A stretch of DNA of 64,000 nucleotides from Synechococcus sp. UW179A (GTDB lineage Bacteria > Cyanobacteriota > Cyanobacteriia > PCC-6307 > Cyanobiaceae). The notes beneath the pieces were generated by a model, which ran no database searches, was not told the origin of the DNA, and saw nothing but the letters and a program-made list of their open reading frames with translations. Positions within the stretch are counted from its first letter, which is position 1. Every line of letters starts with the position of its first letter. The stretch covers positions 62,001-126,000 of the forward strand of contig NZ_UCNJ01000032.1 in the NCBI RefSeq assembly GCF_900473965.1, given 5' to 3'. Made by a program: the position numbers and the translations under genes. Shown piece by piece: positions 43,920 through 60,324 of this stretch.

Positions 43920-43986
43920 CGGACAATTTGAGCAGCCTTCAACTTTAGATGCTTCTCCTTGCTTTGACTGCAAGAATGAACTCCAT

Positions 43987-44060
43987 GCTCCCTTAGCTCA
44001 GCTGGATAGAGCAACTGCCTTCTAAGCAGTCGGTCGATGGTTCGAATCCATCAGGGGGCG
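43987..44060 (+). tRNA. trnR: tRNA-Arg (UCU anticodon)
   Basis: A full cloverleaf: acceptor GCTCCCT/AGGGGGC with one G-T pair, D-arm GCTC/GAGC, anticodon stem ACTGC/GCAGT with loop CTTCTAA (anticodon TCT), a 5-base variable loop and T-arm GATGG/CCATC with TTCGAAT. CCA is not encoded. Its 3' 44 bases are repeated twice downstream, marking it as an integration target. Confidence 0.95.
44017..44060 (+). repeat. att-like direct repeat, copy 1 (inside intact tRNA)
   Basis: The 3' part of the tRNA from the anticodon arm to the discriminator base. The same 44-base segment recurs downstream at 49840 and 57438. Such partial tRNA copies are a hallmark of tyrosine-recombinase elements that integrate into tRNA 3' ends. 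Confidence 0.85.
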
Positions 44061-44306
44061 TCAGTCACAGACAGGTTTCTCAGCCATCCTTGCCCGCCAC
44101 ACCGTATAGGCCATGCCCTGACGATTGGCGATGAGTTCCCGAAGGGAGGCATCCCGTTCAAGCGTGCGGGCAAGAGTCAGATGACCGAAGGAGCGGGACT
44201 GACCTGGTTGCGCACGATGTTGTGGGCGACTCGAGTGATCGCGGTGAGAGCCAGCCATGGGTGAAAGCGAGTCGAAGGTGCAGAGCATTTTGGGAACTGA
44301 CGCCAC
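44061..44306 (-). CDS. Possible small gene or remnant in duplicated block
   Basis: An 81-codon minus-strand frame containing TLERDASLRELIANRQGM and AYTVWRARMAEKP, which look like real protein sequence, while its N-terminal half is Ser/Pro/His-rich and less convincing. An identical frame lies at 57482-57727, but since the DNA there is identical, conservation gives no independent support. It may be the tail of a decayed gene. Confidence 0.35.
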   Translation of the reverse strand: MASVPKMLCTFDSLSPMAGSHRDHSSRPQHRAQPGQSRSFGHLTLARTLERDASLRELIANRQGMAYTVWRARMAEKPVCD

Positions 44307-44440
44307 TGCTGGCCAGAGACAGCAAAAAGCGGGAGCTGTTGGATCCCACTGCGATCACGCATTCGATTGATACGTGGCGGTATGCAGTGAACTACTGCCA
44401 GAAGCCTTATGCGTTGGGCCGTGGGCCGGAGGTGTGGTGA
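44222..44440 (+). CDS. Small hypothetical protein in duplicated block
   Basis: A 72-codon frame from GTG, ending TWRYAVNYCQKPYALGRG. The stop TGA overlaps the ATG of the next gene, which suggests translational coupling. No family recognised. It is duplicated without change at 57643-57861. Confidence 0.45.
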   Translation: MGDSSDRGESQPWVKASRRCRAFWELTPLLARDSKKRELLDPTAITHSIDTWRYAVNYCQKPYALGRGPEVW

Positions 44441-44784
44441 TGGATGTTGTCGTTAAGGGTGAGAGGGCCGTTATTGGCGATTGTGTGCTGTTGAGTTGTG
44501 GTGATAGCGAGCGGATTATGAGGGTGCGTGATGTGGATGGATGTCAGATCAGGCTTGATGGAGTGGTGAAGAGTGTGGAGCGCAATTGGTGCAAGGTTTT
44601 AGTTCAGGCTGAAGAAAGAGGACGGATTACTTATTCGTTGATGCACACAAGGCTGAGGGATGTGGAATTAACGGAGAGGGTGAATGTATGGAGCAAGGTG
44701 AATGCAAAGGGGATTGATCGTGTGAGGAATACCGGGACTGAAGAGTGTGAGTATTGGGCACCGTTAGGGGAAAGCAGTTTTTAG
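44440..44784 (+). CDS. Hypothetical protein of the island left end
   Basis: A 114-residue protein starting MDVVVKGERAVIGDCVLLSC with regular beta-strand patterning (SERIMRVRDVDGCQIRLDG), perhaps a small barrel. Compared with the copy at 57861, most nucleotide changes are silent (for example AGG/CGT for Arg), which shows past purifying selection and so real coding. No known family. Confidence 0.6.
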   Translation: MDVVVKGERAVIGDCVLLSCGDSERIMRVRDVDGCQIRLDGVVKSVERNWCKVLVQAEERGRITYSLMHTRLRDVELTERVNVWSKVNAKGIDRVRNTGTEECEYWAPLGESSF

Positions 44785-44799
44785 AGCTACCCAAACGGG

Positions 44800-49639: not shown

Positions 49640-49839
49640 CGGTGGAGTCTGGCGAAACCGTCTGCCCACCAAGCGAAAGACCGACTGCTCAACAGGCAGT
49701 CGGTCGATCCCTAGAAAAACTGGATACAGCTCGCTTTCTATATCCAGAAACGTCCATCTCAGGGTCGCCCCCAACCGACCCCAGGCATTAAAAACCAAGT
49801 CATAGCCTTAAAGCCCTTGCTACGACTGGGCTGAAAATT
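49486..49839. repeat. Right-end module, copy 1
   Basis: Homologous to 57085-57437 and, like it, directly precedes a tRNA-Arg fragment. It contains the start of a DUF1651 gene (minus strand) and a 10-base-pair hairpin. Confidence 0.8.
49679..49705. repeat. Hairpin mimicking the tRNA segment, copy 1
   Basis: GACCGACTGC, a 7-base loop, then GCAGTCGGTC. The right arm with the next bases (GCAGTCGGTCGAT) is identical to the anticodon-stem/variable-loop part of the tRNA-Arg target, only 150 bases from the att-like fragment. Confidence 0.75.
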
Positions 49840-49883
49840 GCCTTCTAAGCAGTCGGTCTATGGTTCGAATCCATCAGGGGGCG
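49840..49883 (+). repeat. att-like direct repeat, copy 2 (tRNA-Arg 3' fragment)
   Basis: Identical to the last 44 bases of the tRNA except G to T at the first T-stem base (GTCTATGG). The flanking 30 bases downstream are still recognisably similar to the sequence after the intact tRNA. This is the boundary of units 1 and 2. Confidence 0.85.
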
Positions 49884-49920
49884 CTAGTCACACCAGGGCA
49901 TCTCAGCCAATCACCACTCG

Positions 49921-51691: not shown

Positions 51692-51920
51692 TTGATAACT
51701 GCCGGAGAGCATGATTCGCGCAAAAAATAAAAGCCATATAAGACCCAAGCTCAGGAAAAGCGGGGCAGGTCAAGTGGTTCCTGATAAAAGCCGGCAAAAG
51801 ACAATCGATCAGCCAACAACAACTAACAGCAAAAACCCCCCGCCTAGCGCGGGGTTTTTGCTGTCCTGGAACCTTGGCGTCACCAGCTTCCTGGTGATCT
51901 AAGCACAGTCAGGCACTGTG
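51692..51920. other. Intergenic stretch with terminator
   Basis: Contains a terminator at 51838 and otherwise no supported gene. A 63-codon frame here is not convincing. Confidence 0.5.
51838..51859 (+). terminator. Rho-independent terminator after acidic protein gene
   Basis: CCCCGC-CTAGC-GCGGGG-TTTTT, preceded by AAAAACC so that it could work in both directions. Confidence 0.8.
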
Positions 51921-52068
51921 TTCTGAGCCATTCACTAGAAGCTCACCAGAACTTGGCAAGGTCTGCACCAGAGCTGTGTAGTGGGGTTCACCAGAAAGGC
52001 TGTGATCTTGAAGGAGTCGAGGGGGCAACGCCTCCAACACAACTCACACACTTATCAGCTTTAAAACA
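51921..52068 (+). promoter_or_regulatory. Shared 5' leader, copy 1
   Basis: Homologous over about 145 bases to 59600-59770, although the peptides that follow are different. Shared blocks include GCTCACCAGAACTT, CACCAGAGCTGTGTAG, GGCTGTGATCTTGAAGGAGT and CCTCCAACACAACTCACACA. Probably carries promoter and 5' UTR. Confidence 0.7.
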
Positions 52069-52257
52069 ATGACTACTTCAATCTTCAATGCTCCCTTGCA
52101 AATCAAGGAAGCTATTCCAACCTCCACCCAGCCAGAGCTTGAACCGCTCTTCGATCAAGAGTTGGAAGCTGCTGCTGGGGGAATGTACCTCGGCAATCTG
52201 GATCGCGTCCTGGCACCACTCGATCGCTGTCTCTCACCTCTGGGAAGATGTTTGTAA
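52069..52257 (+). CDS. Double-glycine peptide precursor with repeated LDR/LGR core
   Basis: A 62-residue peptide. The leader (IKEAIPTSTQPELEPL..ELEAAAGG) is not Nif11 but ends in the same ELE-x-AAGG cleavage motif. The core MYLGNLDRVLAPLDRCLSPL has an internal pseudo-repeat L-D/G-R-x-L and two Cys. It has a very strong leader region shared with the gene at 59771. Confidence 0.65.
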   Translation: MTTSIFNAPLQIKEAIPTSTQPELEPLFDQELEAAAGGMYLGNLDRVLAPLDRCLSPLGRCL

Positions 52258-52297
52258 AAACTGAACGCAGGCCTCTCAACAAGTGAGACCAATTACG

Positions 52298-52319
52298 CCC
52301 CGCCAAGTGCGGGGTTTTT
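52298..52319 (+). terminator. Reused terminator hairpin, copy 2
   Basis: CCCCGC-CAAGT-GCGGGG-TTTTT, identical to the copy at 50324. Confidence 0.8.
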
Positions 52320-52369
52320 AATTGCCAACTGCCGACCGTTGCTATGACTTTTGTACTGGCCAGTCACCC

Positions 52370-52597
52370 ATGTCCCTAGAACAACTCAAAGCATTCCTCG
52401 CCAGGGTCAAAGGTGATTCCAATCTTCAAGAGAAACTAAAAGCAGCTAAGTCACCTGAAGATGTTGTAGGCATTGCGAAAGAACATGGTCATGAATTCAC
52501 TTCTGACAAGTTCGGTCAGCTCAGTGAAGAGGAGCTGGAAGGCGTGGCTGGGGGACAGTGCTACATGTCACCTTGGATTCCTAGCCTAAAGGATTAA
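52370..52597 (+). CDS. Nif11-like leader precursor peptide 3
   Basis: A 75-residue precursor of the second leader type: MSLEQLKAFLARVKGDSNLQ, then SPEDVVGIAKEHGHEFTSD and SEEELEGVAGG. The core QCYMSPWIPSLKD has one Cys and two Ser. TGCTATGAC lies about 30 bases upstream, with flanking bases matching those before peptide 1. The ATG used is that of the paralog leaders. Confidence 0.87.
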   Translation: MSLEQLKAFLARVKGDSNLQEKLKAAKSPEDVVGIAKEHGHEFTSDKFGQLSEEELEGVAGGQCYMSPWIPSLKD

Positions 52598-52689
52598 CAA
52601 GAGCATTAAGACATAAACACTCGAAAAGAAACCCCCACTCTAGAATATCTTACCATTAGCTCACTCACCCCAAATCCCACCATTGACAG

Positions 52690-52800
52690 CGGTTTTTATT
52701 TCTTCAATCTCGCCAATAATCCCACAAATCAGCCTCCAATACCTGGCACGATTGAGCGTAGTAATTATTAGCCAAAGACACTGCAGCAGACTGTTGCTAG
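52690..52800 (+). repeat. Dispersed intergenic repeat, copy 3
   Basis: Well-preserved copy with AATCCCACAAATCAGCCTCC, TACCTGGCACGATTGAGCG and a longer tail GCCAAAGACACTGCAGCAGAC that is shared only with the copy at 63715. Confidence 0.8.
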
Positions 52801-52827
52801 AACTAGGCTGTAGCTCAACGTACTCCC

Positions 52828-53010
52828 ATGTCAGAAGAGCAGGCCAAGAGAAAGAAAGATGAGTCAAAGGATGTTAAAGAAGAGTTGACTGAAGACGAGT
52901 TGAAGGGTTTGTCAGGAGGAGGCGTTGTGTACAACAAAGACACTGGGGAGATGAGTTTTGATGAGCGAAACGCAGACAATAATTGGGGTTTGGGTGCAGT
53001 CAGAAAATAA
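52828..53010 (+). CDS. Short double-glycine peptide, type C
   Basis: A 60-residue peptide with Lys/Asp/Glu-rich leader (MSEEQAKRKKDESKDV) ending in EELTEDELKGLSGG and a core GVVYNKDTGEMSFDERNADN without Cys. The leader shape matches the next gene but not the Nif11 family. Confidence 0.65.
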   Translation: MSEEQAKRKKDESKDVKEELTEDELKGLSGGGVVYNKDTGEMSFDERNADNNWGLGAVRK

Positions 53011-53070
53011 AGAAAGAGGAGGGCAAGAGCAGACACTCCCTACAGTTTCAGAAACTCTACTATTAATACT

Positions 53071-53247
53071 ATGGAAGACACCAAAAACATCAAGGACGCC
53101 AAAAAAGAGAACGAGTCGCCGGAACTCAAGGAAGAGTTGATTGACGAAGAGTTGTCAGAACTATCTGGCGGAGACAACCTTAAGCACCGTAATGAGGACG
53201 GTTTTCCCTGTAAACGTCAATACAATGGTCCAAACCTCGGCAACTAG
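53071..53247 (+). CDS. Short double-glycine peptide, type C (58 residues)
   Basis: Leader MEDTKNIKDAKKENESPELK ends EELIDEELSELSGG; the core DNLKHRNEDGFPCKRQYNGP has a single Cys and no Thr. Under 60 codons and easily overlooked. Forms a tandem pair with the preceding type C gene and is followed 10 bases later by a Nif11 gene. Confidence 0.65.
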   Translation: MEDTKNIKDAKKENESPELKEELIDEELSELSGGDNLKHRNEDGFPCKRQYNGPNLGN

Positions 53248-53256
53248 AACTGAACT

Positions 53257-53493
53257 ATGACACTTGATCAACTCAAAGCCTTCCTCGCCAAGGTCAAAGG
53301 TGATTCCAATCTTCAGGAAAAACTAAAGGCAGCAAAGTCACCTAAAGACGTTGTGGGAATCGCTAAAGAACACGGCCACGAATTCACTGCTGATAAGATT
53401 ACTGAACTCAGTGATGAGGAACTAGAAGGCGTGGCTGGGGGCAATGGCTGCTGCAAAAAAGGAACTGAAAAACTGCAAGCGAGTTGGGGGTGA
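53257..53493 (+). CDS. Nif11-like leader precursor peptide 4
   Basis: A 78-residue precursor: MTLDQLKAFLAKVKGDSNLQ ... SDEELEGVAGG with core NGCCKKGTEKLQASWG. The adjacent Cys pair and Thr/Ser are favourable for ring formation. It begins 9 bases after the preceding stop, so these genes form a short operon. Confidence 0.87.
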   Translation: MTLDQLKAFLAKVKGDSNLQEKLKAAKSPKDVVGIAKEHGHEFTADKITELSDEELEGVAGGNGCCKKGTEKLQASWG

Positions 53494-53538
53494 ATAGGAA
53501 CTCTCTGTAGGGGTTCTCCCTGATTCTACTCATCAAAC

Positions 53539-53562
53539 CCCCTGCTGCCGAAGGGGCTTTTT
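53539..53562 (+). terminator. Rho-independent terminator after peptide 4
   Basis: CCCC-TGCTGCCGAA-GGGG-CTTTTT, directly continuous with the intergenic repeat. Confidence 0.6.
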
Positions 53563-53665
53563 ATTGCTTCAATCAACCAAATAATCCCATAAATCAGCCT
53601 CCAAGACTTGATACCATTGAGAGCAGTAAGTATTAATCAAAGGCGCTGCGTCACATCGTTGCTAT
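53559..53665 (+). repeat. Dispersed intergenic repeat, copy 4
   Basis: AATCCCATAAATCAGCCTCC is perfect; the second half is diverged (AGACTTGATACCATTGAGAG). It ends right before the promoter-like TTGCTATAAC of peptide 5. Confidence 0.75.
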
Positions 53666-53689
53666 AACCGCAAAACACATTCGATACCC

Positions 53690-53914
53690 ATGTCAGAAGA
53701 GCAACTCAAAGCCTTTCTAGAAAAGGTCAAAGCAGACACCAGCCTTCAGGAGAAGATCAAGGCAGCTGCGGATGCCAATACCGTTGTGACGATTGCCAAG
53801 GAAGCAGGATTCAGTATTTCTGCTGAGGATTTGAAGAAAACTCACGCGGAGTTAACGGTTGAAGAGTTGGAAAACGTGACTGGGGGCACAGCCTGGAGCA
53901 ATAGCTGTTACTAA
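53690..53914 (+). CDS. Nif11-like leader precursor peptide 5 (minimal core)
   Basis: A 74-residue precursor. Leader MSEEQLKAFLEKVKADTSLQ ... VEELENVTGG; core only eight residues, TAWSNSCY, with one Cys and Ser/Thr. This is the shortest core of the set. Confidence 0.87.
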   Translation: MSEEQLKAFLEKVKADTSLQEKIKAAADANTVVTIAKEAGFSISAEDLKKTHAELTVEELENVTGGTAWSNSCY

Positions 53915-53974
53915 AAATTGTCTAGACAATGCTGACGACTGACTGAGCCCTTACCCAGCAAAGCATACAAATTC

Positions 53975-53995
53975 AAAAGCCTCAGGAGGCTTTTT
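53975..53995 (+). terminator. Rho-independent terminator after peptide 5
   Basis: AAAAGCCTC and GAGGCTTTTT form a tight hairpin with T-run. Confidence 0.7.
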
Positions 53996-54080
53996 ATTAC
54001 TTTATTTACCCCAATAATCCCACAAATCAGTCTTAAATACCTGGCACAATTGAGCGCAATAATTATTAGTTAAAGGCAAG
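53990..54080 (+). repeat. Dispersed intergenic repeat, copy 5
   Basis: AATCCCACAAATCAG and TACCTGGCACAATTGAGCGCA follow the terminator T-run. It overlaps the 3' end of a possible minus-strand gene. Confidence 0.75.
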
Positions 54081-54403
54081 AAACCGTCGCTGAAAGGGTG
54101 GCGAAGGCGCATCCCCCAAACTAGTGAATGTAACTTCTGACCGTAAAGCTCGACCCAGTTCACCGCACCGACTGCGCCGGTGAGGAGCTGCCGGCATCGT
54201 TCACGCGCAGCAGCGTTCTCCTCAACTGAGTGAAACTTTTCGTTTGCTCGAAGCTGGCTCCAGCGGCCACGCTCCAGAATTTCCGCTTCAGCTTGAGCCC
54301 GTGCTTTCGGCGGTGGTGGTCTCCGCCGGCGCATCAGTGTCATCAGCGCAGATTTCATCAACGCCCTGGTTATTGAATTCAGGTCAACAACAGGCAGCGT
54401 CAC
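54002..54403 (-). CDS. Possible hypothetical protein or fragment
   Basis: A 133-codon frame, GC-rich compared with its neighbours. ARAQAEAEILERGRWSQLRA and EENAAARERCRQLL look like real helices, but the last 20 codons run into the intergenic repeat, so the natural C-terminus is probably lost. No family recognised. Confidence 0.4.
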   Translation of the reverse strand: MTLPVVDLNSITRALMKSALMTLMRRRRPPPPKARAQAEAEILERGRWSQLRANEKFHSVEENAAARERCRQLLTGAVGAVNWVELYGQKLHSLVWGMRLRHPFSDGFLPLTNNYCAQLCQVFKTDLWDYWGK

Positions 54404-54604
54404 AGTTGCATCAATGGGCGCGCTGCATGGTGTCGACAGAAGTGTCTGACAGAAGCACTCGAGGGCTGTAAGCAGCGCCGCTGATCGGAGTTCTGGGGAT
54501 GACTCCAGCGCTTCAGTTCACCAGAGCATTAAGTTTGCGAAAGTTCCATAAAGACTAAAAGCTAAAAAATCACCTATTATTGGAGAACTAAATAGCCATA
54601 GCCG
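54404..54604. other. Intergenic, nothing recognised
   Basis: Separates the possible minus-strand fragment from the hydrolase. AT content rises sharply near 54500, marking the start of the AT-rich hydrolase cassette. Confidence 0.5.
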
Positions 54605-55474
54605 ATGAGAGTAAGAAGCAATTACTTTTTAACTACCGATGGTGTGCGTCTTCATTGGTTAGAGGCTGGCGACGGAATACCCTTGATTATGTTGCCAGGC
54701 TGGTCTCAATCAGCCGTCTTATTTCGGGACCAATTTAGTGGCTTATCCGAGCACGTACGATGTATAGCTCTAGACCATCGTGGCCACGGAGAAAGCGATA
54801 AGGCTGAACATGGTTATCGCGTTGACAAGTTGGCTCGAGACCTTCAGGAGTTTATATCCTTCTGCGGATTTAAAGGAGTAATCATTCTTGGACATTCAAT
54901 GGGTGCATCTGTAATTTGGTCTTATCTAAACAGTTTTAGTGATGAAGCTATATCGGGTATTGTAATTGTTGATCAGCCCGCAGCATTGACGCTGCCAGAC
55001 TATGAACCTAGTGAGCTGTTGAGGAAATCAGGGGCTATTTTTTCCTGGGAAGTACTTAATCACACATGCTCTTCACTGATTGGCAGCAATGGAATAGAGT
55101 TCTCTAAAAACATGATTTTAAATATGCTTAGTGATGAAATTAGCAATGCGGACCGTGAGTGGATACTAAAGGAGAATTTCAAGTTTCCTCGGCACCATGC
55201 AGCAACGCTGCTTTTTAATGCATGTGTTCAGGACTGGAGAGACACAATTTCCATGATAAAGCTTCCTGCGTTAATAATAGGTGGCGAAAAAAGCATCGTT
55301 CCGCCTGACAGCCAGCGCTGGATACAAAGCCAAATCGAAGGGTCTAGATTGCAAATATTTTCATCCGATCAAGGAGGATATCATTTCGCATTTCTTGAAA
55401 ATCCTGAGAAATTTAATTTGGTTGTACGTCAATTTGTTGATGAATTGAAAGGTTCGAGTGATTGCTATGCCTGA
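54605..55474 (+). CDS. Alpha/beta hydrolase, AT-rich cargo gene
   Basis: A 289-residue cytosolic alpha/beta hydrolase. The oxyanion/nucleophile region is ILGHSMGAS (Ser about residue 99), an HG-type motif is VMLPGWS-like in MLPGWSQSA, and the His is in GGYHFAFLENP. The fold resembles haloalkane dehalogenase/esterase relatives; substrate unknown. Codon and base use are more AT-rich than the core genome. Confidence 0.85.
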   Translation: MRVRSNYFLTTDGVRLHWLEAGDGIPLIMLPGWSQSAVLFRDQFSGLSEHVRCIALDHRGHGESDKAEHGYRVDKLARDLQEFISFCGFKGVIILGHSMGASVIWSYLNSFSDEAISGIVIVDQPAALTLPDYEPSELLRKSGAIFSWEVLNHTCSSLIGSNGIEFSKNMILNMLSDEISNADREWILKENFKFPRHHAATLLFNACVQDWRDTISMIKLPALIIGGEKSIVPPDSQRWIQSQIEGSRLQIFSSDQGGYHFAFLENPEKFNLVVRQFVDELKGSSDCYA

Positions 55475-55562
55475 GACAGTTGCTCTTCTGATATCAGACA
55501 GGTGCCAATAGAGCTGTTGTAGCACTGGTTCAGTAGCTAAGACGCTGGCGGTTCAACTAAGT

Positions 55563-55632
55563 ATTGATTAGTGCCAGGTATTGAAGGCTGATTTGTGGGA
55601 TTTTTGGGGTGATTGACGCAATAAAAAGCCCT
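55563..55632 (-). repeat. Dispersed intergenic repeat, copy 6 (inverted)
   Basis: On the minus strand reads AATCCCACAAATCAGCCTTC then AATACCTGGCAC. It lies downstream of the minus-strand Nif11 gene, so the repeat keeps its relation to the peptide gene even when inverted. Confidence 0.75.
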
Positions 55633-55673
55633 TGCTAATGCAGGGGCTGTGAGTGTGTAGCCCTGTCCCCAGC

Positions 55674-55916
55674 TTATTTTGAATAGCGCTCGCAATATGC
55701 AGAATCTTCTTCTGGCCACAGTGCTCGTATGCCCCCCGCTGCGCCTTCCAGCTCCTCTTCACTGAGCTCTTCGAGCTTATCAGCAGTGAATTCATGACCA
55801 TGTTCTTTAGCAATGCCTAAAACATCTTCAGGTGACTTAGCTGCTTTTAGTTTCTCCTGAAGATTGGAGTCACCTTTGACCTTGGCGAGGAATGCCTTGA
55901 GTTGTTCTAGGGACAT
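55674..55916 (-). CDS. Nif11-like leader precursor peptide 6
   Basis: An 80-residue precursor of the second leader type, MSLEQLKAFLAKVKGDSNLQ ... SEEELEGAAGG, on the minus strand. The core IRALWPEEDSAYCERYSK has one Cys and two Ser. Terminates in a hairpin (AGCCC..GGGCT-TTTTT) at about 55623-55649. Confidence 0.87.
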   Translation of the reverse strand: MSLEQLKAFLAKVKGDSNLQEKLKAAKSPEDVLGIAKEHGHEFTADKLEELSEEELEGAAGGIRALWPEEDSAYCERYSK

Positions 55917-55956
55917 GGGTGATGGGTCAGTTCAGCAGTAATAGCACTGGCTTAAA

Positions 55957-56004
55957 TCACCACCTGGGCGGGCAACGCTTCCACCCGCCCACTGCAGGCA
56001 AACA
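55957..56004 (-). pseudogene. DUF1651 C-terminal remnant
   Basis: On the minus strand the sequence reads GGWKRCPPRW and stops, as in the C-terminus of the intact DUF1651 gene at 56974. Only the tail remains. Confidence 0.45.
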
Positions 56005-56028
56005 AAAACCCCACTCGTAAGAGCGGGG
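56005..56028 (-). terminator. Rho-independent terminator after the 56051 gene
   Basis: On the minus strand CCCCGCTC-TTAC-GAGTGGGG followed by TTTTTG. Confidence 0.75.
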
Positions 56029-56050
56029 CATTGCGTTGAAACGTCGTGGC

Positions 56051-56944
56051 TCAGAAGGCGCAGCCGTCACCTCCGCTAAGAGGGCTGAGCATCTGACCAG
56101 GGTTAGCGCCGGTCTTTTCTGCCATGAAGGTCGAACCACCAGGACCAGAGGTGCCGCCGAGTTCAACAACAGGGTTCAGTGATTCCCTGAAGCTGTTCAT
56201 CTCAGCGGATGGTTCGAAGCGTTCGATTACAAAGCTGTTATCGCTTCTTAGATCGGTTGTTTGTAATTCACCCTTGATGTCTCCGAGCTTCATAAAGCCA
56301 TCGACATCTTCATCGACATAAGCATTGGTCTTGCTGGCGGTCTTTGCTGCCAGGTAACTCGAACCAGGACCACCATTAGCTGCAGTCCAGTCGATGTTCT
56401 CCCTCATACCGAACACCGCATCATTGTTGTGTTGGTCACTCTTGACGTCGTTGCAGTCCTGCCAAATCCAGTTGCTGTCTTCAAAGGATGTGGCACTGCC
56501 ATTTATCCAGACATTCATTGGACGACCTTCACCGGTTAGGGAGTCGCCGCCACGATCTGGCGTGAAGTGGTTATCGCCAACGATCACGCTGCCTTTGGCA
56601 TCGATGTCTTGGGACTTGAAGACACCTTCACCACTGATAGGACCAAGGATTCTTGGATCACCGTCGCCAAAGGTCTCTGACAGAGAGTCAATCGAATCAG
56701 TGTCGTAACCCGTTTTAAAAGTTGGATGAACAGTGCTGATGCTTGCGCCTTTGGTGGGTCTGAAGTTGGTCGTTTCGTTCAAGGCATTGAAGGTACCGGT
56801 CAGCTCATCAACAGACTGAGCGGAGAGGTAGGAACCGCCGTAGGTCGTGTAGTGAGGCATTGATTTGAAAGCGGTAGAGGGTTGTTCCCTCTCGATGCAC
56901 GCACCATCTCCGGCTTCAACATCTGACTCGATGACCTGTGTCAA
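56051..56944 (-). CDS. Repeat-containing hypothetical protein with shared leader
   Basis: A 297-residue protein starting at TTG (or MPHYTTYGGSYL at 56860). The N-terminal 28 codons and the upstream DNA match the region before the acidic protein at 50495. It contains three copies of a short motif, GGSYLSAQS, GSSYLAAKT and GGSTFMAEKT, each followed by an Asn/Gly-rich stretch, and ends in LSGGDGCAF. Only two Cys-containing sites. No known family. Confidence 0.65.
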   Translation of the reverse strand: MTQVIESDVEAGDGACIEREQPSTAFKSMPHYTTYGGSYLSAQSVDELTGTFNALNETTNFRPTKGASISTVHPTFKTGYDTDSIDSLSETFGDGDPRILGPISGEGVFKSQDIDAKGSVIVGDNHFTPDRGGDSLTGEGRPMNVWINGSATSFEDSNWIWQDCNDVKSDQHNNDAVFGMRENIDWTAANGGPGSSYLAAKTASKTNAYVDEDVDGFMKLGDIKGELQTTDLRSDNSFVIERFEPSAEMNSFRESLNPVVELGGTSGPGGSTFMAEKTGANPGQMLSPLSGGDGCAF

Positions 56945-56951
56945 GCAGGGC

Positions 56952-56967
56952 TGTGATCTTGCTCACA
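56952..56967 (-). promoter_or_regulatory. TGTGA-N6-TCACA palindrome, copy 2
   Basis: Perfect TGTGAGCAAGATCACA on the minus strand, 8 bases before the TTG start. It is either a CRP-type operator or a translation-affecting hairpin. Confidence 0.55.
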
Positions 56968-56973
56968 GGGGCG

Positions 56974-57237
56974 TCACCACATAGGCGGGCAACGCTTCCA
57001 CCCACCTGATTTCTGCATCGTTTCCCAGGCTTCGATCGCGTTGTGGCGAAGCATTCGCCTGATGACCGGCTGACCACCACCCCGCAACGGTCTGGTCTCC
57101 ACGACAACCCACTGAGCATGAGCTGTTGGATTGGCGTTGGTGAAGCTGCAGGCCTTCCCTTGCTGGTCGTTCACTAGCCAGCCGACATCGTTCTTCGGTG
57201 TATGGCGATCAACAAGTGGGCGGTCCTTGTTTGGCAT
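56974..57237 (-). CDS. DUF1651 family protein, intact
   Basis: An 87-residue protein starting MPNKDRPLVDRHTPKNDVGW. The family core is GWLVNDQQGKACSFTN and GGGQPVIRRMLRHNAIEAWE, ending in KRCPPMW. DUF1651 is restricted to marine picocyanobacteria and has many copies per genome; function unknown. The gene belongs to the right-end module of unit 2. Confidence 0.8.
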   Translation of the reverse strand: MPNKDRPLVDRHTPKNDVGWLVNDQQGKACSFTNANPTAHAQWVVVETRPLRGGGQPVIRRMLRHNAIEAWETMQKSGGWKRCPPMW

Positions 57238-57437
57238 CGGTGAATTCTGGCGAAATCGCCTACCCACCAAGCCAAAGACCGACTGCTCAACAGGCAGTCG
57301 GTCGATCCACAAAAAACTGGATACAGCTCGCTTTCTGTGTCCAGAAACGTCCATCTCAGGGTCGCCCCCAACCGAGCCCAGGCATTAAAAACCCAGTCAT
57401 AGCCTTGAAAACCCTTGGCACGACTGTGAATTTTTTT
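57085..57437. repeat. Right-end module, copy 2
   Basis: Homologous to 49486-49839, with the same order: DUF1651 gene start, hairpin, about 130 bases, then the tRNA fragment. Confidence 0.8.
57277..57303. repeat. Hairpin mimicking the tRNA segment, copy 2
   Basis: GACCGACTGC / GCAGTCGGTC, same as at 49679; the right arm again continues as in the tRNA (GCAGTCGGTCGAT). Confidence 0.75.
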
Positions 57438-57481
57438 GCCTTCTAAGCAGTCGGTCGATGGTTCGAATCCATCAGGGGGCG
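57438..57481 (+). repeat. att-like direct repeat, copy 3 (tRNA-Arg 3' fragment)
   Basis: Exact copy of the tRNA 3' 44 bases without the 5' half, and the start of the third unit. Confidence 0.88.
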
Positions 57482-57860
57482 TCAGTCACAGACAGGTTTC
57501 TCAGCCATCCTTGCCCGCCACACCGTATAGGCCATGCCCTGACGATTGGCGATGAGTTCCCGAAGGGAGGCATCCCGTTCAAGCGTGCGGGCAAGAGTCA
57601 GATGACCGAAGGAGCGGGACTGACCTGGTTGCGCACGATGTTGTGGGCGACTCGAGTGATCGCGGTGAGAGCCAGCCATGGGTGAAAGCGAGTCGAAGGT
57701 GCAGAGCATTTTGGGAACTGACGCCACTGCTGGCCAGAGACAGCAAAAAGCGGGAGCTGTTGGATCCCACTGCGATCACGCATTCGATTGATACGTGGCG
57801 GTATGCAGTGAACTACTGCCAGAAGCCTTATGCGTTGGGCCGTGGGCCGGAGGTGTGGTG

Positions 57861-58133
57861 ATGGATGTTGTCGTAAAGGGTGAGCGTGCAGTTGTTGGTG
57901 ATTGTGTGCTGCTGAGTTGTGGCGATAGCGAGCGAATTATGAGGGTGCGTGATATGGATGGATGTCAGATCAGGCTTGATGGTGTGGTGAAGAGTGTGGA
58001 GCGTGATTGGTGCAAGGTTTTAGATCAGGCTGAAGAAAGAGGACGGATTACTTATTCGTTGATGCACACAAGGTTGAGAGATGTGGAATTAACGGAGAGG
58101 GTGCATGTATGGAGCAAGGTGAATGCAAAGTAG
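57861..58133 (+). pseudogene. Truncated copy of the island left-end gene
   Basis: Matches the 114-residue protein at 44440 (MDVVVKGERAVVGDCVLLSC) but a TAG replaces a GGG codon, cutting it to 90 residues. Downstream bases still resemble the original coding sequence (ECEFWASLGESNF), so this is a recent nonsense mutation. Confidence 0.65.
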
Positions 58134-58205
58134 ATTGATCGAGTGAGGCGATATGGAAATAATGAGTGCGAGTTTTGGGCATCGCTTGGTGAGAGCAATT
58201 TTTAC

Positions 58206-58410
58206 AGCTACCCAAACGAGCGAGGCTGAGAGCTATACAAAACCCGAAAGGGAAAAATCAGGGGACGTTGAGTAGTCGCTATCGATCTCCCGACAAAACA
58301 ACCTCACACCAATCACACAACGCCAAGTGCGGGTTTTTTCATTTGCAGACTAGACATAGTCAGTGCTGGCATATAAAGGCTAGAGATGGAGTCACCATGC
58401 AACGCCAAGG
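58206..58410. other. Intergenic with degenerate terminator
   Basis: Contains ACGCCAAGTGCGGGTTTTTT, a weak form of the reused terminator. No gene seen. Confidence 0.4.
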
Positions 58411-58989
58411 ATGCCTCGCACTACTACTGCATTTGCTGCTGCCTTAGCCCTATGCTTGCCATTAGGACGCCCGTTGCTGGTTGCTCTGACACCTACCATT
58501 GGAATTGGCGTAGGGTTTCTCTCAACACAGGCGGCACATGCAAAAAACGTAATAGGCGTTTATGAATCAGGTTTAGAGAAGTTTAAAAGCGGGGATTATC
58601 AAGGGGCAATTTCTGATTTCAATAAGGTAATAGAATTAGATCCTAAGAGTCGATCTGGCTACTATGCCCGCGGCATGTCAAAAGCAAGCTTAGGAAAATA
58701 CAAAAGCGCTATTAATGATTATACAAAAGCATTGCAGATTGATCCTAGTTTTGTCGCAGCCTACATAGGCAGGAGTGAAGCGAAAAGGAAAATAGGCAAT
58801 ACCAACGGATCCATGAAAGACCTTGATGCAGCAATAGAATTAGATCCCAAAAATGCCTTTGCATACAGAGTTCGAGGAATCCAAAAAGAGGAATTAGCTG
58901 ACCTTGAAGGCGCTTGCGCCGATTGGTCGAAGGCAGCTGAATTGGGTGATAAGTCACCAGTCGCTGAATGGGTTAAGAAGCAATGCTGA
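58411..58989 (+). CDS. Secreted TPR-repeat protein, second copy
   Basis: A 192-residue protein with a signal peptide (AFAAALALCLPLGRPLL) and four TPR units (YQGAISDFNKVIELDP). The C-terminal block GACADWSKAAELGDK..EWVKKQC is shared with the TPR protein at 45327, and both lie near a left-end block and a Nif11 gene. Probably periplasmic; partner unknown. Confidence 0.82.
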   Translation: MPRTTTAFAAALALCLPLGRPLLVALTPTIGIGVGFLSTQAAHAKNVIGVYESGLEKFKSGDYQGAISDFNKVIELDPKSRSGYYARGMSKASLGKYKSAINDYTKALQIDPSFVAAYIGRSEAKRKIGNTNGSMKDLDAAIELDPKNAFAYRVRGIQKEELADLEGACADWSKAAELGDKSPVAEWVKKQC

Positions 58990-59028
58990 AATCTGAAGCT
59001 GTCTAATATCGACGAATGCATGACACTC

Positions 59029-59051
59029 CCCCGCCAAGTGCGGGGTTTTTT
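59029..59051 (+). terminator. Reused terminator hairpin, copy 3
   Basis: CCCCGC-CAAGT-GCGGGG-TTTTTT. Confidence 0.8.
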
Positions 59052-59109
59052 CATTACCTACTGCCGAACTGCTGAATGGTGCTATGACAGCAGAACAGCG
59101 CTGCTACCC

Positions 59110-59382
59110 ATGTCAGAAGAACAACTCAAAGCCTTCCTCGAAAAAGTCAAAAGCGACACCAGCCTTCAGGAGAAGCTCAAGACAGCTGCTGATGCTGATG
59201 CAGTAGTTGCAATAGCTAAGGACGTAGGTTTAACTATTTCTGCTGATAACTTGAAGAAAGCCCAGTCAGAACTTGCAAATGAAGAGCTAGAAAAGGTGGC
59301 TGGTGGAGAACAGTGCCCCCTGAATACTGGGTGCCCCCTGCATACTGGCTGGTGGTGCACTGGAGTACAAGTGGATCAATGA
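59110..59382 (+). CDS. Nif11-like leader precursor peptide 7, multi-Cys core
   Basis: A 90-residue precursor: MSEEQLKAFLEKVKSDTSLQ ... NEELEKVAGG, then a core with EQCPLNTGCPLHTG followed by WWCTGVQVDQ. Three Cys and three Thr occur in a CPLxTG repeat, the best candidate in the window for a multi-ring lanthipeptide. TGCTATGAC lies about 30 bases upstream. Confidence 0.88.
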   Translation: MSEEQLKAFLEKVKSDTSLQEKLKTAADADAVVAIAKDVGLTISADNLKKAQSELANEELEKVAGGEQCPLNTGCPLHTGWWCTGVQVDQ

Positions 59383-59479
59383 CCACATCGTTCTGCCAGT
59401 AGTGAGTCATAAATGCGCAAAAGAAGTGATTAGCAATTTGAGCCAAAGATAATAGGCATAAAAGATCAAAACTTAGGCA

Positions 59480-59562
59480 TTTAATTTCTTCAATAGCCTG
59501 ACTAATCCCTTAAATCAGTCTCCAATACCTGGCACGATTGAGCGCAGTTGAGCAGAGATCAA
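59480..59562 (+). repeat. Dispersed intergenic repeat, copy 7
   Basis: AATCCCTTAAATCAGTCTCC and TACCTGGCACGATTGAGCGCA, followed by GTTGAGCAGAGAT which is shared with copy 2. Confidence 0.8.
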
Positions 59563-59599
59563 GGAGATGAAAGCGTTAGCCAACTAGGTGAAAACAAAG

Positions 59600-59770
59600 T
59601 TCTGGAGCATTCACCAGAAGCTCACCAGAACTTCGCGGGGTCTACACCAGAGCTGTGTAGAGAGGTTCTCTAGAAGGGCTGTGATCTTGAAGGAGTCGAG
59701 GGATCAACGCCTCCAACACAACTCACACACTCACTCACTCACTCACTCACTCACTCACTCACTTGAAAAC
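59600..59770 (+). promoter_or_regulatory. Shared 5' leader, copy 2, with microsatellite
   Basis: Homologous to 51921-52068 but precedes a different peptide gene. Here the 3' part contains an expanded TCAC repeat. Confidence 0.7.
59731..59762 (+). repeat. (TCAC)8 microsatellite in 5' leader
   Basis: Eight perfect tetranucleotide units end 8 bases before the ATG of the next peptide gene; the sister leader has only a short TCACACAC remnant at this position. Slippage would change leader length. Confidence 0.9.
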
Positions 59771-59938
59771 ATGACTGAACAAAACATTCAAGATCAAATC
59801 ATCGAGCTGACTGACGACCAACTGGAACGCGTCGTAGGGGGGTGGATACCTCCACTAATGAGGCTACCTATCCCCCCCCCCGGGGGTTTCCAGCCTTGGC
59901 ATGAGAGAACTCCCCCAACTGAAACTTATAGATCCTGA
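59771..59938 (+). CDS. Double-glycine peptide, Pro-rich core
   Basis: A 55-residue peptide with leader MTEQNIQDQIIELTDDQLER ending VVGG and a core WIPPLMRLPIPPPGGFQPWH followed by a short tail, without Cys. Six codons are carried by a C10G5 tract, prone to slippage. The leader resembles that of microcin-like double-Gly peptides. Confidence 0.7.
   Translation: MTEQNIQDQIIELTDDQLERVVGGWIPPLMRLPIPPPGGFQPWHERTPPTETYRS
59872..59886 (+). repeat. C10G5 homopolymer tract in coding sequence
   Basis: Ten C then five G inside the peptide gene; a one-base change would alter the C-terminal third of the core. A sequencing artefact in the original assembly is also possible. Confidence 0.75.
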
Positions 59939-60087: not shown

Positions 60088-60324
60088 ATGCCAGAAGAGC
60101 AACTCAAAGCGTTTCCAGAGAAGGTCAAAGCTGACACCAGTCTTCAGGAGAAACTCAATGCAGCTAAGTCACCTGAAGATGTTTTAGGCATTGCTAAAGA
60201 ACATGGCCATGAATTCACTGCTGATAAGATCAGCTAGCTCAGTGAAGAGGAGCTGGAAGGCGTGGCTGGAGGTGGTGGATGGTGCTGCTATGGACCATAT
60301 AGCATGACACTCCATCACAATTAA
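60088..60324 (+). pseudogene. Nif11-like precursor 8, broken by in-frame TAG
   Basis: Reads MPEEQLKAFPEKVKADTSLQ ... HEFTADKIS, then TAG at 60235, then the frame continues as LSEEELEGVAGG with a core GGWCCYGPYSMTLHHN. Paralogs have Gln or Glu at the stop (CAG to TAG). Either a recent pseudogene or, less likely, a stop-readthrough gene. Confidence 0.8.

Follow-up and report, generated by a model that had tools for sequence, protein, structure and literature searches.

A stretch of 64,000 nucleotides (nt) from Synechococcus sp. UW179A (contig NZ_UCNJ01000032.1, positions 62,001 to 126,000, hereafter the window) carries two copies of a non-coding leader, here called L, each placed before an open reading frame (ORF) for a small peptide of the double-glycine (GG) class. 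The window corresponds to C32:62001-126000 of the source genome (3.06 Mb; designated G000, other genomes being numbered likewise), which has the same genus code as Synechococcus WH7803. L recurs throughout this genome, and its organization points to a promoter-operator cassette that is probably switched by a three-part system of lipoprotein, histidine kinase and response regulator.

Two leaders and their peptides

Copy 1 of L occupies 51920..52052 and copy 2 occupies 59599..59731; both, like every feature of the two loci given below, lie on the plus strand. In a direct-repeat search and alignment the copies match without gaps over 133 nt with 89% identity, and each, used as a query against the genome, recovers its partner with E ~1e-43, which excludes a chance origin of the likeness. 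A preliminary description of this DNA had reported homologous non-coding leaders of 145 bases; the homology stands, and the length is slightly too long because homology ends 16 nt 5′ of the first ATG (52069) and 39 nt 5′ of the second (59771). The intervening stretches of the two copies align poorly, and a (CACT)n run (59721..59764), visible in the sequence and in the direct-repeat search, extends from copy 2 towards its ATG. Each copy contains four boxes of the type CACCAGA followed by a conserved core. In copy 1, from the sequence and an analysis of its register, box 1 (51933..51939) reads CACTAGA, with one substitution, and boxes 2 (51944..51950), 3 (51966..51972) and 4 (51989..51995), which follow at intervals of 11, 22 and 23 base pairs (bp), read CACCAGA; the core, GGCTGTGATCTTGAAGGAGTC (51998..52018), also stands out by its information content. 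Copy 2, read from the sequence, has three intact CACCAGA boxes (59612..59618, 59623..59629 and 59645..59651), a degenerate fourth (CTCTAGA, 59668..59674) and its core at 59677..59697. Behind the core of copy 1, folding and stem counts place a G/C hairpin, GGGGGC-AAC-GCCTCC (52021..52035), in the presumed 5′ untranslated region (UTR); the sequence of copy 2 breaks this hairpin.

The two peptides come from the ORF list. Peptide 1 (52069..52257) has 62 amino acids (aa), with a GG leader (LFDQELEAAAGG) and a core with two cysteines, and matched nothing in Pfam or NCBIfam at E up to 1. Peptide 2 (59771..59938) has 55 aa, with a GG leader (ELTDDQLERVVGG) and a proline-rich core; its best NCBIfam match, the CTB family bacteriocin model NF038167, was rejected at 18 bits against a cut-off of 32. 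Neither peptide matches the Nif11 leader (PF07862 / TIGR03798). A BLASTP comparison of the two yields one match, 6 of 13 residues over L.D..LE...GG (E 0.012 for a single comparison), and none after the GG. Both peptides carry the leader motif of the double-glycine class and are predicted to be exported; the genome has four Peptidase_C39 matches. The earlier statement that the peptides share no sequence is thus nearly right, in that it holds beyond the GG and fails for the six residues at the motif, and the same comparison speaks to the possibility that the peptides are diverged homologs: the GG motif alone is common to both.

Distribution and architecture of L

A search of the genome for further copies of the leader had been proposed in the preliminary description. 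With copy 1 as the query and E up to 1e-3 it returned 29 matches in G000, including truncated ones, before many unrelated peptides, and copy 2 as the query adds one more (C12:363936). Of 31 genomes of the genus, 12 carry L, and the number of matches ranges from 1 to at least 28; as the best 28 candidates per genome were scored, the counts for G000, G005, G008 and G026 are lower bounds. From the family, 300 genomes were sampled, and the best two candidates of each were scored. Matches turned up in at least 11 of them: eight belong to the genus and two, G059 and G147, to a second genus, while G189 has a weak match of 23 nt; this sampling missed a copy at G059:C23, about 75-200. Named genomes scanned for an exact pattern gave 21 stretches, the carriers being WH7803, UW105, UW140, two single-cell (AG-) Synechococcus genomes and Prochlorococcus MIT 0701, and the scan also gave four records from three organisms outside the picocyanobacteria. 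A plasmid collection searched with L gave no match. From the 12 genomes the genus search listed 138 matches, of which 28 belong to G000 and 110 to the others; after exclusion of six short ones (26-38 nt), the 104 others were combined with the 30 G000 copies (29 plus the one from the copy 2 query) into a collected set of 134, of which 131 have a recognizable core. Among the papers that literature searches listed, none describes this leader or operator in its title or the opening of its abstract, and an earlier description may exist elsewhere. Yfr103 was considered as an identity for L and set apart by its described length alone, that of an RNA of 290-328 nt (PMC5069720).

What follows L is diverse and yet mostly of one kind. 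Of the 131 cored copies, 102 precede an ORF for a Nif11 precursor (21), a short GG peptide of the ELTDDQLE (32) or LLDQEL (22) type, or a signal-peptide-like protein (27), as labeled by regular expressions with 12 corrections by hand. The remaining 29 are labeled other; in 14 of these an ORF of 51-325 aa begins 30-43 nt past the core, and eight of the ORFs have 227-325 aa. Nine G000 leaders precede Nif11 precursors against 117 Nif11 matches in that genome, so most of its Nif11 genes lack L. The peptide behind copy 1 of the window also stands behind the leader at C12:358769, and near relatives of it follow the G008 leaders at 1267147 and 2489221. Several other leaders (L023:1074 on; L093:4902 on; L021) are followed by proteins of ~100-260 aa with PWE[KE]W..LP.EER motifs, and at G026:C1:811996 (L085) the leader precedes a GG-peptide-like frame without a start codon. 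The ORF behind the WH7803 leader at G002:C1:1533412 (L103) has 51 aa, as compared with 143 aa at G023:C1:1649952 (L106); the shortened frame is perhaps a product of decay after loss of the regulator considered below. L is likely to be a ready-made promoter placed before many unrelated small proteins predicted to be exported, in some 30 copies in G000. The dispersal of these copies, and the truncation of some of them (C32:127140; G008:2724280), would also be expected of a non-autonomous mobile repeat, akin to miniature inverted-repeat transposable elements or repetitive extragenic palindromes, that had spread by transposition and was incidental to expression. Against such a repeat speak the shared orientation of 102 of the 131 copies before an exported-peptide ORF, the concentration of conservation in spaced boxes and core, and the lack of any inverted repeat of at least 20 nt framing copy 1 or copy 2, which together make it highly improbable.

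The boxes are held in a strict geometry. In 106 of the 131 copies, CACCAGA boxes with up to one mismatch stand at -65, -54, -32 and -9 relative to the core, giving spacings of 11, 22 and 23 bp; other cored copies have lost boxes, show one-base shifts or have one box in slot 2. In an 11-bp register the boxes thus occupy slots 0, 1, 3 and 5, with a one-base shift of the last, and two G026 sites use slots 0, 1, 3 and 4. Across 128 distinct copies, in which the box consensus is TTCACCAGA, information per position is 1.55 bits in the boxes, 1.73 in the core and 0.97 in the spacers, which together with the fixed spacing indicates that substitutions account for the variation in the spacers and insertions or deletions for hardly any of it. 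The reversed box-pair pattern, as a control, has one match across the 31 genomes. G001, which has no L match, contains three elements that each consist of six contiguous 11-bp repeats, as read by eye; core-like sequence follows two of them, again by eye, one being matched by script at six substitutions. These six-box variants (G001:C1:665048, 666775 and 1025763; L145, L146) lie before an RTX-like protein, identified by eye, and two large ORFs. L accordingly has direct repeats of ~8 bp with an 11-bp period, as found in operators of the PhoB type.

The strictness of this geometry, the variable distance to the ATG (the first ATG beyond 25 nt lies 34-58 nt past the core in most copies and at 25 to 161 nt in outliers) and the absence of an RNA family or consensus fold fit an array for protein-DNA contacts, and L looks like a DNA-acting promoter as opposed to a structured RNA. 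A transcribed regulatory RNA, whether a riboswitch-like leader or a UTR derived from a small RNA, would explain why a stem of at least 4 bp lies just 3′ of the core in 124 of 132 copies, and one of at least 5 bp in 79, as compared with 45% and 16% of shuffled sequences, and why the 3′ parts of two copies have fold z-scores of -2.2 and -2.1. It is very unlikely nonetheless: Rfam gives no match over L at either threshold, RNAalifold finds no consensus structure among 121 sequences, copy 1 taken in full has a z-score of -1.0 and two further copies have -0.5 and 0.2, and box spacing is strict though the boxes are unpaired. Structured RNA was rejected as the identity of L on the outcome of Rfam, single folds and RNAalifold, the short G/C stem being all that the copies share, and a pairing of AAGGAG with CTCCTT before some ATGs, seen by eye, was dropped as the variants C4:26344 and C4:60560 show no compensation. 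Some points nevertheless weigh against the promoter reading. The hairpin, above shuffled expectation, possibly has some role in RNA, and the common spacing is in part a matter of descent. The candidate -10 element, GAYCTT, ~10 bp downstream of the last box, is a poor one: it follows TGT and keeps the A and final T of TAnnnT, and the first T is absent. In copy 1 this corresponds to TGTGATCTT (52001-52009), a weak extended -10 candidate, and the assignment is tentative. Downstream of it, GAAGGAGTCGAGGGG is conserved, which a plain promoter leaves unexplained.

A candidate regulator and its relatives

Box pairs outside L point to one regulatory system. Four of them lie at the start of a histidine kinase gene (G000:C2:259072, G026:2624087, G008:3200843 and G017:C18:32862) that is adjoined by a lipoprotein of the phosphonate-binding family (PF12974) and by a divergent response regulator with receiver and Trans_reg_C domains; the domains were assigned in G000, where the locus spans C2:257.5-261.3 kb. 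Counts of Trans_reg_C genes fail to separate genomes with L from those without it, and it was gene positions that pointed to this regulator. At the lipoprotein-kinase junction, box pairs are present in G000, G008, G026 and G017, and also in G054 (three repeats) and G125 (two, with a degenerate one between them) of another genus, the reversed pair having 0 occurrences in 753,507 bp. In addition, the system has an L copy no more than ~1 kb away in G000, G008, G026, G017, G014 and, as a third genus, G059; in the first four the copy follows the regulator together with a small signal-peptide-like protein, and in G014 and G059 it is ~0.5 kb from the kinase. Boxes or a copy of L are thus found at the system's own locus in three genera.

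The system also tends to occur where L does. Within the genus, 9 of the 12 genomes with L and 2 of the other 19 have kinase orthologs (Fisher 4.6e-4), using a cut-off of >430 bits (next best 193) that was chosen after viewing the scores; the two exceptions are G027, which is 63% complete, and G001, in which two six-box elements lie <3 kb from the regulator. Across the family sample, 8 of the 11 genomes with L and 2 of the other 289 have lipoprotein orthologs (Fisher 4.9e-12, kinship ignored), at a cut-off of E <1e-40 (next best 1.5e-17) likewise chosen with the scores in view. The two carriers without L are G054 and G125, both with box arrays between lipoprotein and kinase. All 13 of the orthologous regulators read have the recognition helix NVVDV[YF]VRYLR[KR]KLE, and most non-orthologous regulators read have VDVHIRWLREKIE or others at this position.

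Taken together, these observations make it probable, in our reading, that this system switches L as a promoter-operator cassette, ~115 bp long and continued by a short 5′ UTR. A response regulator of the OmpR/PhoB type would bind the CACCAGA half-sites on one face of the DNA helix and recruit RNA polymerase to the core TGTGAYCTTGAAGGAGTC, acting as an activator, with transcription presumably starting within or just past the core; the resulting UTR would have ~35-60 nt, with the G/C hairpin at its opening. The regulator would most likely be the one encoded beside the PhnD-like lipoprotein and the histidine kinase, controlling its own locus as well, and the L copies would place up to ~30 unrelated exported peptides under one signal. 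Promoter, leader peptide and core would then be swapped by recombination, either within the UTR or at the GG site. This proposal builds on the computed copies, geometry, variable downstream distance, co-occurrence and boxes at the regulator locus and on the change of identity at 52033 described below. A bolder extension, which we offer as a tentative conjecture, is that in marine picocyanobacteria the operator of a three-part chemosensory system became a portable cassette, distributed over the genome ahead of some 30 exchangeable exported peptides; one dissolved signal would then release a combinatorial mixture of peptides, the make-up of which would evolve as cassettes are exchanged behind a constant promoter.

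A number of observations count against this assignment. Because of kinship among the L genomes of the genus, the Fisher values suggest more independence than there is, and outside the genus co-occurrence rests on one shared genome (P 0.03). WH7803 (G002), a complete genome, has three L copies and no orthologous kinase, and G018 and G030, both ~80% complete, likewise have L without the kinase. Conversely, the 63%-complete G027 has the system and no L match, and G001 has the system with the six-box variant only. No box pair is present near lipoprotein, kinase or regulator in the stretches read from G005, G010, G029, G023 and G027. Finally, a paralogous regulator (G000:C25, G009) has a similar recognition helix, NVIEVYVRYLRQKLE, and by this likeness could bind the same boxes. 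L might in that case be a promoter module served by another protein, such as this paralog, PhoB itself or an unrelated factor, the co-occurrence reflecting shared ancestry. The WH7803 copies and the paralog are in keeping with this, as are the 216 bits with which the regulator of the system scores to PhoB (TIGR02154) and the boxes themselves, in which TTCACC is one base off the Pho-site TTAACC (PMC1906773). It is rendered rather unlikely by the boxes or L copies at the system's own locus in three genera, by the variant arrays that adjoin the system in G001, and by the restriction of more than five L copies to genomes that carry the system. The G000 regulator was rejected as PhoB, its score being below the cut-off of 296 bits.

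The Pln regulators of Lactobacillus plantarum are of the LytTR type; among the components of the arsenite sensor AioX-AioS-AioR, AioX is PhnD-like and AioR belongs to another class of regulators. Comparison with such systems brings out what L shares with them. In the Pho regulon, too, direct repeats with an 11-bp period lie upstream of the promoter, and a regulator of the OmpR/PhoB type is encoded beside a histidine kinase; PhoB and SphR sites consist of 8-bp repeats, which for PhoB have a 3-bp linker and lie ~10 bp upstream of the -10 (PMC1906773). The Pho box, CTTAACCT or PyTTAAPyPy(T/A), differs from the L consensus (PMC1906773, PMC10976474). Differences extend to the regulator, with its score below the PhoB cut-off, to the exported-peptide targets, and to the binding protein of the phosphonate family in the sensor operon. 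In the pln regulon, PlnC and PlnD control several bacteriocin operons and their own, with tandem repeats directly upstream of each controlled promoter (PMC2714321), whereas pln is a single quorum-sensing locus and L is dispersed in ~30 copies, has a different repeat and would be governed through a binding-protein sensor. The prochlorosin and Nif11 families resemble the L-linked peptides in being large and in joining a conserved leader peptide to a variable core (PMC10783134, PMC2887384). They differ in that L also serves non-Nif11 and signal-peptide-like proteins, while most G000 Nif11 genes lack it; in a word search, "promoter" and "upstream" are absent from the main texts of these two papers. 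The arsenite sensor likewise combines a periplasmic binding protein with a kinase and a regulator (PMC7533571, PMC7565993, PMC4563254), and has targets that differ from those of the L system.

The double-glycine and Nif11 peptide families are very large in marine Synechococcus and Prochlorococcus, and their function and control are open questions; the function of prochlorosins has been stated to be unknown (PMC10783134). A shared operator with a candidate sensor provides a direct entry to the control of ~30 peptides. By linking precursors, Nif11 and non-Nif11, that lack any common sequence, and signal-peptide-like proteins as well, L defines one probable regulon, and it can serve as a sequence tag for locating unannotated small exported proteins. 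The parts, a PhoB-like regulator and GG peptides, are ordinary; the whole is unusual, being a portable promoter in ~30 copies with a testable candidate for its sensor. Copy number, the 11-bp geometry of the boxes and the probable regulator are what this analysis adds to a reading of the window sequence.

Recombination and genomic setting

The preliminary description had further claimed that the 5′ region travelled independently of the peptide. That L is a re-used module is borne out, as is separation in one case; the interpretation as a whole is partly supported. The case is that of peptide 1 and its counterpart behind the C12:358769 leader, which are identical at all 283 bp of a block (52034..52316) comprising the end of the leader, ORF 1 and most of the terminator, while the leader directly upstream of the block has 11 differences in 114 sites and the sequences farther out are divergent. 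The change of identity at 52033 has a Fisher value of 7.7e-7, with borders picked after the mismatches had been seen. Because an identical block stands behind leaders that differ, promoter and peptide recombine apart; in evolutionary terms this is a clear example of a promoter module being parted by recombination from the peptides under its control. Other exchanges are of the same nature: the leaders C19:1030, C17:76664 and C12:153001 are identical over 117 nt, two preceding one Nif11 peptide and the third another; a peptide core ending in SPTLRIFEWLNGGRGPLA is found behind an ELTDDQLE leader (G008:1792876) and an LLDQEL leader (G026:1700528); and the truncated leaders C32:127140 and G008:2724280 are joined to other sequence. 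With the identical block, these shared leaders and cores and the truncated leaders indicate that promoter, leader peptide and core are exchangeable parts. In most cases either the peptide may have been captured behind L or L may have been copied before the peptide. A tree of the leaders (131 rows, 115 columns) has 10 of 125 inner branches starred and requires 55 label changes as compared with 78.7 after shuffling, of which 1-3 per group are forced by well-supported branches; its resolution is too weak for transfers to be counted or their direction to be read.

The window has an intact tRNA-Arg (TCT) gene at 43986-44062, and copies of its 3′ part at 49836-49909 and from 57437. The stretch 44016-44797, which comprises the 3′ half of the tRNA gene and the DNA that follows it, is repeated at 57437-58218 with 95% identity, and copy 1 of the leader sits between the two tRNA-Arg 3′ fragments. 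This arrangement, judged by the repeats, looks like island borders. Tycheposons are elements that use tRNA genes. They have been described as mobile elements of Prochlorococcus (PMC10654061).

Three Nif11 genes of the window that lack L have [TG]TGCTAT[AG]AC exactly 21 nt before the ATG (52339-52348, 53659-53668 and 59079-59088), which suggests that these peptide families are also served by another class of promoter. A repeat that begins near CAATAATCCCACAAATCAG...CCTGGCAC.ATTGAGCG follows terminators at 52693, 53558, 53991 and 59479 and is inverted at 55571; repeats of the CAATAATCCCACAAATCAG type occur before both promoter classes. Downstream of peptide 2, a Nif11 ORF at 60088-60307 has an in-frame TAG at codon 50, leaving 49 aa as compared with 74-80 aa in three paralogs of the window, and is on account of this stop codon a pseudogene.

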